The notes below the pieces were generated by a model, which was not told the origin of the DNA, searched no databases, and saw nothing but the letters and a program-made list of their open reading frames with translations. From Verrucomicrobiota bacterium (lineage in GTDB: Bacteria > Verrucomicrobiota > Verrucomicrobiia > Verrucomicrobiales > Akkermansiaceae): a stretch of 64,000 nt of DNA. The stretch covers positions 1-64,000 of the forward strand of contig RDYP01000011.1 of the NCBI GenBank assembly GCA_004293445.1, read 5' to 3'. Numbering within the stretch: position 1 is the stretch's first letter; each line of letters opens with the position of its first letter. Shown here piece by piece: positions 55,325 through 62,743 of this stretch. The position numbers and the translations under genes are program-made.

Positions 55325-58138
55325 ATGTCCAACCAGAATCCCGAACAAAAAGCCCGCGATCAGATCGACGCGCAGCTTCGTGAATCAGGCTGGATCGTTC
55401 AGGATAAACACGGGATCAATTTCAACGCGGGAAACGGCCAAGCCATCCGCGAATACACCACTGATTCCGGTCCGGCCGATTACGTTCTCTTCGTCGATGG
55501 CCGGCCGGTGGGTGTCGTTGAAGCGAAAAAAGAAACCCTCGGCCAGAACATCACCACCGTCGAGGACCAGACCGCCGACTACGCCGCTTCCAAGCTCAAA
55601 TGGATCCAAGCCACCGGCCTTCCCCTCCCGTTCCTCTACGAGGCCACCGGCGTCATCACCCGCTTCACCGACCAGCGCGACCCGAAGCCCCGCTCGCGGG
55701 AGGTCTTCGCCTTCCACCGCCCGGAAACCCTCCGCGAATGGCTCGCCCGGGAAAAATCCCTCCGCGCCCGCCTGCTCGATCTCCCGGCGCTCGACCCCAC
55801 CGGCTTGCGCGACTGCCAGATCGGCGCCATCACCAATCTCGACTCGTCCTTCAAGAAGGCCAAACCTCGCGCCCTCGTCCAGATGGCCACTGGCTCGGGG
55901 AAAACCTTCACTGCCATCACCTCGATCTACCGCCTGCTCAAGCACGCCCGTGTGAAACGCATCCTCTTCCTCGTCGATACCCGCAACCTTGGCGAGCAGG
56001 CCGAACAGGAGTTCCTCGCCTTTACGCCCACCGACGACAACCGCTCGTTCACCTCCATCCACGCCACCCAGCGGCTTTCGTCCTCCCACGTCCCGGCCGA
56101 TGCCCAAGTCTGCATTTCCACCATCCAGCGGATGTATTCCATCCTCCAGGGCCGCGAAATGACCGAGGGCGAGGACGACATCAACCCCGCCGAGTCCGCC
56201 AGCGGCCGCAAGGAACCCTTGCCGGTGTCCTACAACGAAAAAGTCCCGCCCGAGTTCTTCGACGTCATCGTCATCGATGAATGCCACCGCTCGATCTACA
56301 ACCTCTGGCGGCAGGTGCTCGATTACTTCGACGCCTTCCTCGTCGGCCTCACCGCCACGCCCGACGGCCGCACCTACGGCTTCTTCAAACAAAACCTCGT
56401 CTCCGAATACACCCACGAGGAAGCCGTCGCCGATGGCGTGAACGTCCAGGGCGAAATCTACACCATCGAGACCGCCGTGACCCAGGGCGGCGGCAAGGTG
56501 CTCAAGGGCCTGGTCGAAAAACGGGAAAAGCTCACCCGCGCCAAGCGCTGGGAACAACAGGACGAGGATCAGGATTACTCGGCGAAGAAACTCGATACCG
56601 AGATCGTCAATCCCTCCCAAATCCGCACCGTCATCCGCACCTTCAAGGAGAAGCTCCCCGAGATCTTCCCCGATCGCGGGGATGCCGACGGCACTTTCCA
56701 GGTTCCCAAGACCCTCATCTTCGCCAAGACCGACTCCCACGCCGACGACATCATCCAGATCGTCCGCGAGGAGTTCGACGAAGGAAACCGCTTCTGCAAA
56801 AAGGTCACCTTCAAGAGCGACGAGGACCGCACCGACAAGGACGGCAACGTGATCCCCGGCGAGGACCCCAAGACCATCCTCGCCGATTTCCGCAACGACT
56901 ACTACCCGCGCATCGCCGTGACCGTGGACATGATCGCCACCGGCACCGATGTGAAGGCGCTCGAATGCCTGCTCTTCATGCGCGACGTGAAGTCGAAGAG
57001 CTACTTCGAGCAGATGAAGGGCCGCGGCACCCGCACGCTCGACCACGACTCGCTGAAAAAAGTCTCCTCCGCCGCCAAGACCGCGAAGTCCCGCTACGTG
57101 CTTGTCGATGCCATCGGCGTCACCAAGTCGCTCAAGACCGCCAGCCGCCCGCCCATCACCAAGCCGAACGTCACTTTCAAGGACCTCGCCATGGAGGTCG
57201 TCATGGGTTCCAGCGATCCGGACACCGTCTCGTCCCTCGCCGGACGCCTCGCCCGCATCGACCGGAATTTCACCCCGGCCCAGAAGCAGGAGTTCGAGAA
57301 GAAAACCGGCGGCATCTCGCTTTCCACCCTCACCAAGAACCTCTTCGCCGCCATCGATGGCGAGACCATCGAGCAGCGCGCGCTCGAAATCACCGGCCAG
57401 CCGCCCGGCAGCGAGCCCGGCGACTTCGCCCGGGACAAGGCCCAGAAGGAACTCGTCGCCGCCGCCATCCAGCCGCTCACCGGCGCGCTCGTCACCCACA
57501 TCGTCGAGACCTGCAAAATGAACCTGCAAACCATCGACCACCACACCATCGACGTCCTCCTCGGCGCGGGCTGGGACACCTCCGCCGCCGACGCGCCGAA
57601 AAACCAGCAGGACTTCGAAAGCTGGCTGCGCGACCACAAGGATCAGATCGTCGCCCTCACCATCTTCTACGACCAGCCCCAGCGCCGCCAGGAGCTCACC
57701 TTTTCCCAGATCAAGGAAGTGCTCGACCTGCTCAAGGCCAACGCCCCGCACCTCGCCCCGCTCAACGTCTGGAACGCCTACGCCCGCCTCGACGGCCTGC
57801 CCACCAACGCCACGCCGATCAGCGAACTCACCGCCCTCGTCGCCCTGATCCGCCGCGCCTGCGGCATCGATGGGAAATTGACCCCCTTCGCCGACACCGT
57901 CCGCCGCAACTACCGCGACTGGATCCTCAAAAAGAACGCCGGCCAGCCCTTCACCGAAGCCCAGGCCGCTTGGCTCCAGCTCATCCGCGACCACGTCATG
58001 ACCTCCTTCCACCTCGAACGAGACGACCTCGATTACGCCCCCTTCGACGCCCAAGGCGGCCTCGGCAAAATGCACCAGCTCTTCGGCGAGCAAATGGACG
58101 CCCTCATCGATGAACTCAACCGGGAGCTGGTGGCGTAA
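55325..58138 (+). CDS. hsdR: Type I restriction endonuclease subunit R (EcoEI/HsdR type)
   Basis: YVLFVDGRPVGVVEAKKE nuclease motif, MATGSGKTFTAIT Walker A, DECHRSIYNLW DEAD motif, type I R C-terminal region. Confidence 0.95.
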   Translation: MSNQNPEQKARDQIDAQLRESGWIVQDKHGINFNAGNGQAIREYTTDSGPADYVLFVDGRPVGVVEAKKETLGQNITTVEDQTADYAASKLKWIQATGLPLPFLYEATGVITRFTDQRDPKPRSREVFAFHRPETLREWLAREKSLRARLLDLPALDPTGLRDCQIGAITNLDSSFKKAKPRALVQMATGSGKTFTAITSIYRLLKHARVKRILFLVDTRNLGEQAEQEFLAFTPTDDNRSFTSIHATQRLSSSHVPADAQVCISTIQRMYSILQGREMTEGEDDINPAESASGRKEPLPVSYNEKVPPEFFDVIVIDECHRSIYNLWRQVLDYFDAFLVGLTATPDGRTYGFFKQNLVSEYTHEEAVADGVNVQGEIYTIETAVTQGGGKVLKGLVEKREKLTRAKRWEQQDEDQDYSAKKLDTEIVNPSQIRTVIRTFKEKLPEIFPDRGDADGTFQVPKTLIFAKTDSHADDIIQIVREEFDEGNRFCKKVTFKSDEDRTDKDGNVIPGEDPKTILADFRNDYYPRIAVTVDMIATGTDVKALECLLFMRDVKSKSYFEQMKGRGTRTLDHDSLKKVSSAAKTAKSRYVLVDAIGVTKSLKTASRPPITKPNVTFKDLAMEVVMGSSDPDTVSSLAGRLARIDRNFTPAQKQEFEKKTGGISLSTLTKNLFAAIDGETIEQRALEITGQPPGSEPGDFARDKAQKELVAAAIQPLTGALVTHIVETCKMNLQTIDHHTIDVLLGAGWDTSAADAPKNQQDFESWLRDHKDQIVALTIFYDQPQRRQELTFSQIKEVLDLLKANAPHLAPLNVWNAYARLDGLPTNATPISELTALVALIRRACGIDGKLTPFADTVRRNYRDWILKKNAGQPFTEAQAAWLQLIRDHVMTSFHLERDDLDYAPFDAQGGLGKMHQLFGEQMDALIDELNRELVA
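57998..58138 (+). repeat. Direct repeat copy 1 (3' end of hsdR)
   Basis: 141 bp, matches 59015..59155 with about 11 mismatches by eye. Confidence 0.95.
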
Positions 58139-58157
58139 GGCTTCGGTCCCCTTTTTG

Positions 58158-58315
58158 TCGTGCACGAAACGGCTTTTCATGCGCAACAAGCCCCTTTGTC
58201 CGACACAGATGTACCACAAGGCCGATTGTCGTGCAGAAAGCGCCCCGGCATGCAGCACAACCCACTCCAGGCTTGAATCATTCGTGCAATCGTGCAATCG
58301 TGCAGCACGAAACGG
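58158..58315. promoter_or_regulatory. Cluster of TCGTGCA repeats/inverted repeats upstream of vapB-like gene (putative operator)
   Basis: TCGTGCACGA palindrome at 58158; TCGTGCA at 58229, 58282, 58290, 58298; TCGTGC-A-GCACGA inverted repeat 58298-58310. Confidence 0.5.
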
Positions 58316-58323
58316 AAGTAGCC

Positions 58324-58596
58324 ATGAACGTGACCCTCAAACTCCCCGACGAAGTTGTCCGCGAAGCCAGGATACGTGCCGTGCACGACTCAAAATCCCT
58401 CTCCGCCTGGATGGCGGACCTGGTGCGCCGTGAACTCGCTTCGGAGCCACTGGGCGAAGCCAAGGTGCCCCAAACCTGGGTCGAAGTACTTACCGTTCAA
58501 GGGATGCCCGATTCCTTCTACGAAAAGGATTTCCCCCTGCCCGACCGCAAGACCACGAAACACCGTGAGTTCTCATTCGAACCCGACCAGGACTGA
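58324..58596 (+). CDS. VapB-like antitoxin (ribbon-helix-helix type)
   Basis: MNVTLKLPDEVVREARIRAVHDSKSLSAWMADLVRREL; stop overlaps start of PIN-domain gene. Confidence 0.8.
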   Translation: MNVTLKLPDEVVREARIRAVHDSKSLSAWMADLVRRELASEPLGEAKVPQTWVEVLTVQGMPDSFYEKDFPLPDRKTTKHREFSFEPDQD

Positions 58597-59018
58597 TGCC
58601 TTATCTTCTCGATACCGTCACCCTCTCGGCATTTCGGCGCCCGGACAAAGCAGGCCCGAATCTCATCCGCTGGCAGGCGGCACAGCGGGGAACGATCGGT
58701 TGCGTCAGCGTCGTAACCCTCAATGAACTCCGTTACGGAATGCGAAAAGTGGAGGAACGCGATCCGGTTTTTGCGGCGCATCTCGCCACTTGGTATTCCC
58801 AGATCGTGTCACACCCGGATCAATTCCGCATCCTGAGCGTGGACCGCGCCATCGCCGAACTCGCCGCCGACTTCCGCGCCGATCACAACACTCCGTTCGA
58901 GGATTCCCTCATCGCCGCCACCGCCAAAGTCCACAAGCTCACCCTCGCCACCCGCAACACCGCCGACTTCGAAGGCTGCGGCATCGACATCCTCAACCCG
59001 TGGGAATTCGACTCATGA
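58596..59018 (+). CDS. PIN-domain toxin (VapC-like)
   Basis: MPYLLDTVTLSAFRRPDK, TLNELRYGMRK, TPFEDSLIAATAKVHKLTLATRNTADF. Confidence 0.88.
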   Translation: MPYLLDTVTLSAFRRPDKAGPNLIRWQAAQRGTIGCVSVVTLNELRYGMRKVEERDPVFAAHLATWYSQIVSHPDQFRILSVDRAIAELAADFRADHNTPFEDSLIAATAKVHKLTLATRNTADFEGCGIDILNPWEFDS

Positions 59019-59155
59019 CCTCTTTCCACCTCGAACACAACGACCTCGACACCGCCCCCTTCGACGCCCAAGGCGGCCTCGGCAAAATGCACCAGCTCTT
59101 CGGCGACCAAATGGACGCGCTCATCGATGAACTCAACCGGGAGCTGGTGGCATGA
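59015..59155 (+). CDS. 46-aa mini-ORF duplicating the HsdR C-terminus
   Basis: MTSFHLEHNDLDTAPFDAQGGLGKMHQLFGDQMDALIDELNRELVA; 42/46 identical to the HsdR C-terminus; ATGA overlaps with vapC-like stop and hsdS start. Confidence 0.75.
   Translation: MTSFHLEHNDLDTAPFDAQGGLGKMHQLFGDQMDALIDELNRELVA
59015..59155 (+). repeat. Direct repeat copy 2 of hsdR 3' end
   Basis: See 57998..58138. Confidence 0.95.
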
Positions 59156-60639
59156 GTGAGGACAGTCTTCCAGGCGGCTGGGTCAAATGCCCTACTTCTG
59201 AAGTGGCAACACTCATACGCGGAGTCAGTTACTCCAAAGAGGATGCCCGAAAGACCGAAGCGCCCGGGTTTCTGCCCATCCTAAGGGCAAACAATATCGA
59301 TGGCGTGATCAACTTCGATGATCTCACGTTCGTTAGGTCAAATTTGATCTCAAGCGATCAACGACTCCGATCTGGTGACATTCTGTTCGCCATGTCGAGC
59401 GGCAGCAGGAATCTCGTCGGAAAGTCGGCGCGCATTACTCGGGATCTGGAAGCCGGATTTGGTGCTTTCTGTGGGGTTCTTCGTCCATCGCCGGAGACTT
59501 CCAACCAGTTCTTGGCATGGGCGTATCAGACGCGCGAGTTCCGTCACGCCATCAGTGAGGTGGCAAAAGGAAGCAATATCAACAATCTCAAGCGCGAGCA
59601 CCTTCTCGACTACGAAGTCCCCCTCCCACCCCTCGCCGAGCAGAAGCGGATTGTGGCGAAGATCGAGGAACTCTTCTCCGAACTCGACGCCGGGGAGGAG
59701 AGTCTGCGGCGGGCGCGGCGGCAACTCGGCGTCTATCGCCAGTCCCTCCTCAAACAAGCCTTCGAGGGCAAGCTCACCGCCCCCTGGCGCGCCCAACACC
59801 CCGACCTCCTCGAATCCCCCGACCAACTCCTCGCCCGCATCCAAGCCGAACGCCAAGCCCGCTACCAGCAACAGCTCAAGGAGTGGGAGAAGGCGGTGAA
59901 GGAATGGGAAAAAGCAGGTGAGTCTTACCCAAAACCCGCCAAACCTCGCTTCACCGGACAGCTCGAACCTATTTCCCAAAAGGAGCTGCAGGACTTTGCA
60001 GAACTTCCCAGCGGATGGACTTACTTCCGTCTCGGAAATGCCATCGCCTCAATCGATGCGGGCAAGAGCTTCAGCTGCGACGAGCGTCCTCCAAGTTCCA
60101 AAGAAATCGGTGTCGCTAAAGTCAGCGCGGTGACGTGGGGCGAATACGACGAAGGAGAGAGCAAAACGTGCTTGGATTCGTCGAAGGTGAATCCCGCCTA
60201 CTTCATTCGCCAAGGCGACTTCTTGCTCAGCAGGGCCAACACGATTGAATTGGTGGGCGCCGTCGTTTTGGTCAAGCGAGCCGAGCGGAAGATCATGCTC
60301 AGCGACAAGACGCTGCGGATTCACTTTGGCGGAATCGACGAATCATACGTGCTTCAGTATCTCCGGTCCCACGTTGGCCGTCGCGAGATCATGACCCGTT
60401 CGAGTGGCAACCAGATGTCCATGCGCAACATCGGACAGGATCGCATTGCCTCCATTGTTACCCCAGCCTGCTCCCTCCCCGAGCAACAGGAGATCGTCCG
60501 CCTGCTCGACGCTCAATTCGAGGTGATCGAGCAGAACGAGCGGGAGATCGACGCCGCCTTGAAGCGCAGCGAGGCCCTGCGCCAGTCCATCCTGAAAAAA
60601 GCCTTCACCGGCCAACTCGTTCCCCCTGCCTGCCGGTAG
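59152..60639 (+). CDS. hsdS: Type I restriction-modification specificity subunit S (C-terminal tail truncated by in-frame TAG)
   Basis: Two target-recognition domains; PLPPLAEQKRIVAKIEELFSELDAGEESL and SLPEQQEIVRLLDAQFEVIEQ conserved regions. Confidence 0.93.
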   Translation: MSEDSLPGGWVKCPTSEVATLIRGVSYSKEDARKTEAPGFLPILRANNIDGVINFDDLTFVRSNLISSDQRLRSGDILFAMSSGSRNLVGKSARITRDLEAGFGAFCGVLRPSPETSNQFLAWAYQTREFRHAISEVAKGSNINNLKREHLLDYEVPLPPLAEQKRIVAKIEELFSELDAGEESLRRARRQLGVYRQSLLKQAFEGKLTAPWRAQHPDLLESPDQLLARIQAERQARYQQQLKEWEKAVKEWEKAGESYPKPAKPRFTGQLEPISQKELQDFAELPSGWTYFRLGNAIASIDAGKSFSCDERPPSSKEIGVAKVSAVTWGEYDEGESKTCLDSSKVNPAYFIRQGDFLLSRANTIELVGAVVLVKRAERKIMLSDKTLRIHFGGIDESYVLQYLRSHVGRREIMTRSSGNQMSMRNIGQDRIASIVTPACSLPEQQEIVRLLDAQFEVIEQNEREIDAALKRSEALRQSILKKAFTGQLVPPACR

Positions 60640-60644
60640 GCAGG
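60625..60644. repeat. Near-perfect palindrome containing the hsdS TAG stop
   Basis: CCTGCCTGCC|GGTAGGCAGG, one mismatch from perfect symmetry. Confidence 0.85.
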
Positions 60645-61026
60645 CAAGACCCCGGAAGAGTTTCCGCAGCCGCGCCCCGGCAAGTGGTGGGTTTATGTCC
60701 TGAAGTGCAGTGACGGTTCATTCTACAAGGGCTTCACGGAGAATCTTCCTGAGCGTTGGCAGCGTCATCTCTCAGGGACCGCTGCAAAGTGGACGAAGCT
60801 GCATCCGCCGATCGAACTTCTTTATTGGGAAGAACACTGGTCGGAAGCAAGTGCAGTCGAAAGAGAGCGCTACCTGAAATCCGGCTCGGGGCGTGAGTGG
60901 TTCCAACGCGAAATCGTCGAAAATTCTCACGAATACGAACCCGCCTCCGCCCTGCTGGAACGGATCCGGGCTGGGAGATCGGCAACTCCATCAAAAACAA
61001 GCCGCCGCACCAAAGCCGGGAAATGA
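60640..61026 (+). pseudogene. GIY-YIG nuclease-like domain followed by displaced HsdS C-terminal tail; no start codon between the TAG and the domain
   Basis: Hand translation in hsdS frame: AGKTPEEFPQPRPGKWWVYVLKCSDGSFYKGFTENLPERWQRHLSGTAAKWTKLHPPIELLYWEEHWSEASAVERERYLKSGSGREWFQREIVENSHEYEPASALLERIRAGRSATPSKTSRRTKAGK*. Confidence 0.8.
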
Positions 61027-61092
61027 CCACGGAATGAAAGAGAATGAGTAATTCCAGAAAAAACACCATCATCCCATCCGTGCCATCCGTGG
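61027..61092. repeat. 66-bp intergenic element bounded by inverted CCACGGA(A)TG / CATCCGTGG, with tandem CCATCCGTG
   Basis: ccacggaatg at 61027 versus catccgtgg at 61084; tandem ccatccgtg at 61074 and 61083. Confidence 0.5.
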
Positions 61093-61103
61093 TTTAAACA
61101 TCC

Positions 61104-61865
61104 ATGATCCACCCCGTCGAAATCATCGCCATCCACGACCGCACGGCGGAAGGCAACGGCGTGAGCCGCCCGTTCCGCTGCGAGGGTGAGGATGCTTGCG
61201 ATTACTTCGTGAAGCTCAAGAACGCGGGTTACGAGTGCCTGGTGAAGGAGTGGGTGGCGGGCCGACTGGCTCAGGAAATGGGCCTTCCCGTGGCCGACGT
61301 AAGACAGGTGCGGATCCCGCCGGAGCTGATCGCCGGGAATGCGGAGTATGAAACCGACCTGGGCCATGGCATCGCCTTCGGGTCGCTGAAGGTGGAGGCG
61401 GCGGAACGATTGTCGCTGGAGTTCATCCGCCGTGATGAGGGCGGTCTTCTATCGCGCATCCTGCTTTTCGACTGGTGGGTGCGCAATGCCGACCGCGCGC
61501 TTACCGAGATCGGTGGAAATCCGAACCTCCTGTGGGAGATTTCCGCGCGGCGCGTGGTCATGATCGACCACGACAATGCGTTCGATCCCTCGTTCTCTTC
61601 CGTTGCCTTCGGGGACTTCCATGCCTTGCGCGCCCACCGTGGCTGCTGGGAACCGTCCCGCCGTGTGGAACTGGAAGCCTGGCTTGCCGGCGGGCTTTCC
61701 CGTTTGGACGCGATTTGGGCCGAACTCCCTGAAGAATGGCTGGTGGATTCGCACGGCGACTCCCGCTGCAGGCTCGACAAGACCGGCTTGAATGCCGTGC
61801 TATCCTCCTTCCAGAGCAATCCCGACTTCTGGGAAGGGCTTCTGAACCCCACCTCACCGCCATGA
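61104..61865 (+). CDS. HipA-like kinase (HipA_2 type)
   Basis: FVKLKN, LLFDWWVRNADRALTEIGGNPNLLW catalytic loop-like motif, VVMIDHDNAF metal-binding-like motif. Confidence 0.75.
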   Translation: MIHPVEIIAIHDRTAEGNGVSRPFRCEGEDACDYFVKLKNAGYECLVKEWVAGRLAQEMGLPVADVRQVRIPPELIAGNAEYETDLGHGIAFGSLKVEAAERLSLEFIRRDEGGLLSRILLFDWWVRNADRALTEIGGNPNLLWEISARRVVMIDHDNAFDPSFSSVAFGDFHALRAHRGCWEPSRRVELEAWLAGGLSRLDAIWAELPEEWLVDSHGDSRCRLDKTGLNAVLSSFQSNPDFWEGLLNPTSPP

Positions 61866-62743
61866 AACGCACCTACGACTTTGCGACGATCGGCTTCCGC
61901 CCGCATACGGAGACGGAGGAGTTCGTGACGATTGGCGTGGTGGCGCTCGATGTGCAGGCCCGCCATTTCGGGTTCACCTTGCTGGATGCCCGGCGCACGG
62001 GCCGGGTGCATCCCATGTTCCCGACGGCCAAGGCGCTTTACAGGGAAGCCCGCAAGCTGGTGGAAGCGGAGCTAACCGCCATCCAAAAAGCGGTGAACGG
62101 CGACGGCGCGGGCGCGGATGTGCCGGTTTTCCCTGCCATGCGCGACGACAAGGGCGGGCTTTTCGCCGCCATTACCACCCCTCGCGAAGGAGTGATCTGT
62201 TACCCGGTGAAGGGCCGCCGCATGGCTGAAAGCATGGATGAGGTTCTGGAAACCCTGCGTCTCCGCTTCATCGACCGCCACCTGCTGCCACCCGCACAGG
62301 CTGCGGAACAGGAAATGACCAAGCATCTCGCCAAAGTCCTGCGGCAAGCCCGCTTGATTCCAGCCTACAAACGCAATGTTACTCTGGGCACCGAGGAATT
62401 CATGGTTCCCTTCGCCTTCGCCCACATGACCGGCGATCACCGCGCCGACCGCGCCTTGCGCCCGCTGAATTTCGACCTCGCCACGCCCACTGAGATCTAC
62501 AACCACGGCGATGAGTGGATCAACCGACTCAAGCGTCTGGAGCGGCAAGGTTATCGCCCGGATCGCATCCTTTTCGCACTTCGCGCACCCGCAGACGGTG
62601 AAACCCTGCGCCTCAAAGCGTTTCAGGAAATCCGTGGCGAATTGACAGGTCAAGGCTACGAGGCTCCGGCCGAGGACGAGGTGGGACGCATTGTTGATTT
62701 CGCGCGAATCGACGAACCGGCGGATCTCAAACTGGCGCAGTAG
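61862..62743 (+). CDS. DUF3037-like protein
   Basis: YDFATIGFRPHTETEEFVTIGVVALDVQARHFGFTLLD N-terminus; ATGA overlap with HipA-like gene. Confidence 0.65.
   Translation: MKRTYDFATIGFRPHTETEEFVTIGVVALDVQARHFGFTLLDARRTGRVHPMFPTAKALYREARKLVEAELTAIQKAVNGDGAGADVPVFPAMRDDKGGLFAAITTPREGVICYPVKGRRMAESMDEVLETLRLRFIDRHLLPPAQAAEQEMTKHLAKVLRQARLIPAYKRNVTLGTEEFMVPFAFAHMTGDHRADRALRPLNFDLATPTEIYNHGDEWINRLKRLERQGYRPDRILFALRAPADGETLRLKAFQEIRGELTGQGYEAPAEDEVGRIVDFARIDEPADLKLAQ

Follow-up and report, generated by a model that had tools for sequence, protein, structure and literature searches.

An open reading frame that continues past the stop codon of a type I restriction specificity gene, and that encodes a second domain, raises the question of how that domain came to be there and what has become of it. 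The window, i.e. the whole 64,000-nucleotide stretch of DNA analysed here, contains a type I operon with hsdR upstream of hsdS and hsdM downstream. The hsdS gene (59152..60639, + strand) was called as an ORF encoding a specificity subunit of 495 aa, with a match to PF01420 (E value 6e-14), and is truncated by a TAG at 60637-60639. The same frame is then open from 60640 to a TGA at 61024-61026. The initial annotation had placed the HsdS stop at this TAG, with an open frame and an in-frame GIY-YIG domain behind it, and had found no ATG, GTG or TTG in frame ahead of that domain. Reading of the ORF and of the window sequence agreed on the stop, on the open frame and on the absence of these three start codons between the TAG and the domain, and PF01541 matched residues 15-83 of the downstream frame (E value 8e-15; 55.4 bits against a cut-off of 22.6). 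Of 65 long open frames in the window, with all six reading frames counted, 16 terminate in TAG, and nothing thus suggests recoding. Several HsdS relatives stop naturally right after the LVP/EL position, near the TAG of the window, and the truncated HsdS is therefore probably still functional.

The GIY-YIG domain (60682..60888, + strand) retains the invariant Y, Y, R, H, E and K residues; Y19, Y29, R39, H43 and E76 are invariant over 20 alignment rows, including that of the window. AlphaFold2 returned pLDDT values above 90 across most of the domain, the closest PDB folds to the prediction were 1zg2, 1ywl and Slx1, and the closest sequence profile was that of the UPF0213/YhbQ type (E value 1e-18). 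A GIY-YIG fold is thus predicted with high confidence, and the domain is a putative nuclease. Only one other GIY-YIG domain was found in the genome, in a 540-aa frame that appears, from its length, to be UvrC-like. Since this is the only other occurrence, and since related copies recur in restriction-modification genes (see below), the sequence comparisons indicate that the insert is not a product of chance.

To locate the ends of the insert, the two hsdS flanks were joined and used as a query across the phylum. Relatives with an uninterrupted HsdS tail were found in genomes G125 and G216 (73% identity), G182 and G290; Gemmobacter, Vibrio and plasmid-borne HsdS homologues likewise have an uninterrupted tail. 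Such a tail reads QDPTD↓EPASALLERIR (the arrow marks the insertion point), and in G216, which belongs to the same family as the window organism, the tail is TGQLVPQDPTDEPASALLERIRKER. This was the comparison that the initial annotation had named as able to refute it, and its two proposals, that the domain is inserted in frame in the HsdS tail and that the segment downstream is a genuine HsdS tail, were upheld by relatives that read straight through. The original C-terminal tail, EPASALLERIRAGR...AGK and a stop, accordingly lies at 60936..61026 (+ strand), as identified by the homologous tails.

It is apparent from the DNA that the site was interrupted in two places. G216 reads CTCGTCCCC, CAAGACCCC, ACCGAC and GAACCCGCC, whereas the window reads CTCGTTCCC, then CCTGCCTGCCGGTAGGCAGG, then CAAGACCCCGGAAGA, then the piece GTTTCC...GAATA, and then CGAACCCGCC. 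On this comparison, the hsdS tail holds two separate insertions, namely a 20-nt palindrome that carries the TAG and a 276-nt nuclease piece. Joining the window around the 276-nt piece gives ..EDEPAS.., which matches QDPEDEPAS of the Vibrio homologue, and the nuclease insertion most likely comprises 60660..60935 (+ strand; 276 nt, 92 codons), in frame, at GA↓CGAACCC. These boundaries rest on empty sites in homologues, on the fusion described below and on the terminal inverted repeats (TIRs) of the family, because the copy's own ends are worn: the left end shows ~6 of 12 TIR matches and the right TIR is absent. The hsdS stretch between the insertions, CAAGACCCCGGAAGA (60645..60659, + strand), formerly encoded QDP-E-D, as judged from G216, G290 and the Vibrio sequence QDPEDEPAS, and now has one extra base. 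That base would bring the palindrome event to 21 nt, and with an event of that size the full stop-bridged frame would read LVP-PACR(Q/stop)AGK-TPEEFPQPRPGKWWVYV.

The imperfect palindrome (60625..60644, unstranded; half-sites CCTGCCTGCC and GGTAGGCAGG) has the in-frame TAG inside it, lies between the host CCC and CAAGACCCC, and is missing from the empty-site relatives. It folds as a hairpin at the hsdS stop. The notion that palindrome and nuclease arrived as one inserted unit was set aside, as the nine original hsdS bases of CAAGACCCC separate them. A resident REP family was also rejected: REP elements and Rickettsia palindromic elements occur in many genomic copies, and this palindrome is single-copy in its own genome with up to 2 mismatches allowed, although Y1 transposase-like genes are nonetheless present. 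The same palindrome was found upstream of GIY-YIG genes at three other loci (L072, L074 and L190), where the canonical form has CAG at the position of the stop (PACRQAG); in the window it has TAG.

The last observation bears on whether the stop is real. If TAG stood in place of CAG through an error of sequencing or assembly or through strain variation, the actual gene would be an open HsdS-nuclease-tail fusion, LVPPACRQAGKTPEEF. The CAG of the canonical palindrome at those three loci and the 21-nt, in-frame total of the palindrome-associated insertion both point that way. However, TAG-type palindromes (CTGCCTGCCGGTAGGCA) also occur in genomes G392 and G393, so that the variant is natural, and an erroneous or strain-specific TAG appears quite unlikely.

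The bare palindrome, CCTGCCTGCC-GGCAGGCAGG, corresponds to both ends of a nuclease element fused to each other, and it was seen at other sites as well. At ~549 in L195 (G399:C65) a bare palindrome is in frame within an HsdM-like frame (NGNLPAGRQAAGKAK), and the same contig also bears an HsdR that carries the nuclease element. At ~410 in L189 (G392:C128) one is in frame in an apparent RluA-type pseudouridine synthase, and the short form is thus not confined to defence genes.

Relatives of the window nuclease were sought with sequence profiles, both in one genome per species and in 1,178 genomes from four phyla. Scanning of genome contigs with the single window protein returned no close relatives, whereas the profile scan did find them. 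The scores show a clear gap: few exceed 100 bits, all of them in or adjoining defence genes, and the next-best matches (at most 83 bits, in the Bacteroidota search) are ordinary proteins of ~100 aa. No relatives were found in viral contigs; phage and plasmid matches were below 60% identity, and the annotated ones were mostly named as ordinary GIY-YIG proteins. The resulting clade has 21 members, including the window, recurs in distant phyla, and lies entirely in genes for HsdR, HsdM, HsdS, HmaA or HmaB, all of them for restriction or allied anti-phage defence, or immediately ahead of hsdS. This distribution is to be read with the fact that the seeds of the search came from restriction-modification genes too, so that further members of the same clade were the likelier to be found.

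Within HsdR, copies are in frame at three sites (L036, L076, L077, L080 and L183 at site A; L082, L083 and L086 at another; L073 at the third). Others are in frame in HsdM (L078, L184), in HmaA (L075, L079) and in HmaB (L192, and L193 with an internal TAA), or are in the HsdS tail (L191, L194 and the window) or directly upstream of hsdS (L072, L074, L190). The host proteins that were scanned were confirmed by Pfam and PADLOC, L193 being assigned solely by reading and by HmaB likeness. Frames are open in both cultured and uncultured bacteria, the former including the type strain Tangfeifania diversioriginum DSM 27063 (L077, in HsdR). The most informative copy is L191 (also L178; genome G1255), whose HsdS frame is open over 624 aa and holds the nuclease at precisely the window position, ...KLVPQDPND↓LPAPQPGKYFIYV...RTRQAG↓EPASVLLERIKSEK, in which the tail resumes at EPAS. 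The overall interpretation of the initial annotation thus stood as to an in-frame insertion, but it had missed both this open fusion and the location of the TAG within a second, palindromic insertion.

In L194 the ATG of the GIY-YIG frame overlaps the TAA of hsdS, and in L072, L074 and L190 too this frame has a possible start codon, which adjoins hsdS or lies within it. By analogy with L194, the downstream frame of the window might be a separate small gene that is re-initiated at the hsdS stop. The want of an in-frame ATG, GTG or TTG ahead of the domain and the palindrome hairpin at that stop make such a gene highly improbable here.

Complete copies are bounded by 9-nt TIRs, CCTGCCTGC...GCAGGCAGG; they start with CCTGCCTGCG and finish with GCAGGCAGG. 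Most copies with intact ends are inserted at GA/CA↓CG, in the form GA↓CGG, CA↓CGG or GA↓CGA, usually between an Asp or His codon and the codon that follows. Inverted-repeat ends were detected within 200 nt in 16 of the 21 clade members and in 3 of 98 controls, which were ordinary relatives (Fisher p 6e-13). When the flanks of L078 (HsdM), L083 (HsdR) and L075 (HmaA) were joined, each matched uninterrupted genes over the whole query as a single piece. The five HsdR site A copies (of 21) are without the family TIRs. Upstream of their GIY-YIG domain is a different palindrome, CCTGTCTGCGTGC...GCACAGGCAG, with a few host codons ahead of the nuclease, an order like that in the window.

The window copy shares the target, being 276 nt in frame between ..GAAGA and CGAACCC in a defence gene, but 9-nt TIRs are not present at its own ends; the one intact copy of the TIR sequence is that in the separate palindrome, which lies 15 nt upstream. 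The wear of the TIRs, beside a preserved frame and preserved catalytic residues, gives the nuclease insertion the look of an old one; the TAG and palindrome alone look late. A recent insertion now decaying, one of the three options offered by the initial annotation, is for the same reasons a poor fit. Plain decay, in which the insertion left a functionless pseudogene tail of no significance for any family and the open frames elsewhere are unrelated, would account for the TAG, the lack of a start codon and the worn ends. It is nevertheless very unlikely given that the catalytic residues, the 92-codon frame and the downstream tail are all intact, and that the wider family has open, in-frame copies in other bacteria. 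The option of a mobile nuclease is the best supported of the three, by the TIR-bounded, in-frame copies in other restriction-modification genes.

In a tree built on 79 columns, the 21 clade members form one side of a branch that separates them from 68 ordinary GIY-YIG proteins, with a support (88/89) that is not overwhelming; the split requires 1 change, where shuffling gives 19.1. Together with L072, L073, L074 and L190, the window makes up one group (95/95). The three HsdS-tail copies do not form one group, and that site was therefore hit at least twice. The tree of 21 implies 7 changes of host gene, and 11 changes if gene and site are taken together, which suggests that the nuclease moved between defence genes. 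Part of the dispersal, at HsdR sites A and B, could have been vertical or by transfer of whole operons. Between copies with unsaturated dS, dN/dS was 0.14-0.25, and for those in HsdR it was 0.14-0.24.

Such purifying selection, together with the long maintenance in frame, the restriction of the clade to defence genes and the repeated use of the HsdS-tail site, would also be expected of a domesticated fusion, in which the GIY-YIG domain is kept because it aids defence, for instance by acting as a further nuclease attached to the type I or Hma complex; the window would then represent low-level readthrough, or an off state set by the TAG. Against this, an active selfish nuclease would show purifying selection too, the insertions occur at varied places in R, M, S, HmaA and HmaB and share no architecture, the TIRs and target pattern are typical of an element, and the window domain sits behind a stop and has no start codon. 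Domestication is thus considered unlikely.

The nuclease piece of the window is probably a copy of a small mobile GIY-YIG element that passes from one defence gene to another and leaves their reading frames intact. Such an element would encode the nuclease alone, bounded by 9-nt TIRs in complete copies. Inserted in frame into a restriction-modification gene, it would leave the host protein to be made as a fusion, with the nuclease co-translated. Presumably, alleles of these frequently transferred genes that are still empty are cleaved or nicked by the nuclease, and the element would be copied in during repair, in the manner of a homing endonuclease. The window copy may have landed in the hsdS tail at QDP-ED↓EPAS, giving an HsdS-nuclease-tail fusion like L191, and then have lost its TIR ends but neither its frame nor its catalytic residues. 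A bare palindrome (two fused TIRs; 20 nt, or 21 with the extra base) would later have landed 15 nt upstream, and with TAG here in place of its CAG-type codon (PACRQAG), HsdS would end shortly ahead of the nuclease, which would be silent or made solely by rare readthrough. The broader proposal, which posits a class of minimal mobile elements without splicing that consist of a GIY-YIG gene between 9-nt inverted repeats, are inserted in frame at GA/CA↓CG, are specialised on restriction-modification and Hma genes and travel as fusions within their host proteins, with the bare 20-nt palindromes of many genomes as their non-autonomous remnants, is favoured slightly on balance.

GIY-YIG homing endonucleases are intron-borne or free-standing, as exemplified by I-TevI of phage T4 and the Seg proteins. 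Like them, the window family consists of a single nuclease gene at a specific target in a host gene, in distant hosts. In contrast to them, it would be translated within the host protein without intron or intein removal, has short TIRs, and comprises the catalytic domain only, with no separate DNA-binding tail. An intron-borne endonuclease of group I or II was rejected, as no Rfam intron was found in 60400-61100, where there was only a chance-level snoRNA match. Inteins with homing endonucleases are also in-frame insertions whose host protein is still made. Here, however, the whole insert is a GIY-YIG domain and a few codons; no Hint splicing domain was detected by Pfam in the 92-codon window insert or in nine host fusions, and an intein was rejected on these grounds. 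As there is no splicing domain, the insert should stay in the protein.

The small nucleases of the UPF0213/YhbQ type (PF01541; solved structures 1ywl and 1zg2) have the catalytic domain, size and fold in common with the window clade, but are free-standing proteins of ~90-100 aa; the clade is separate from them on the tree, and its members are in frame within defence genes or adjoin them, TIRs being present in most. Rickettsia palindromic elements and in-gene REP repeats are short palindromes in frame within genes, and GTAG REPs often contribute a TAG stop through their ends (PMC3733652). They are without a nuclease, whereas the palindrome described here is single-copy and represents the fused ends of a nuclease element. 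No description of the family was found in the open-access literature on GIY-YIG domains with HsdS or restriction-modification genes, on palindromes or on in-frame insertion. If the proposal is correct, defence genes have selfish passengers specialised on them, whose mode of entry is in-frame insertion into the protein and not an intron, an intein or a gene disruption. It would also explain odd nuclease domains of HsdR, HsdM and HsdS, provide a possible source for a palindrome that recurs inside coding sequences, and offer a testable case of a nuclease fusion that affects, or arms, a restriction complex.

Other genes are also found within this operon. The 3′ end of hsdR is present twice, as a 144-nt direct repeat (57996-58139 and 59013-59156; 92% identical). 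The two copies bracket a PIN-domain toxin-like gene and a small partner gene upstream of it (58231-59015), an arrangement which suggests that the pair was inserted behind hsdR with duplication. Between hsdS and hsdM, a HipA-like kinase gene (HipA_2) and a DUF3037 gene occupy 61104-62743.
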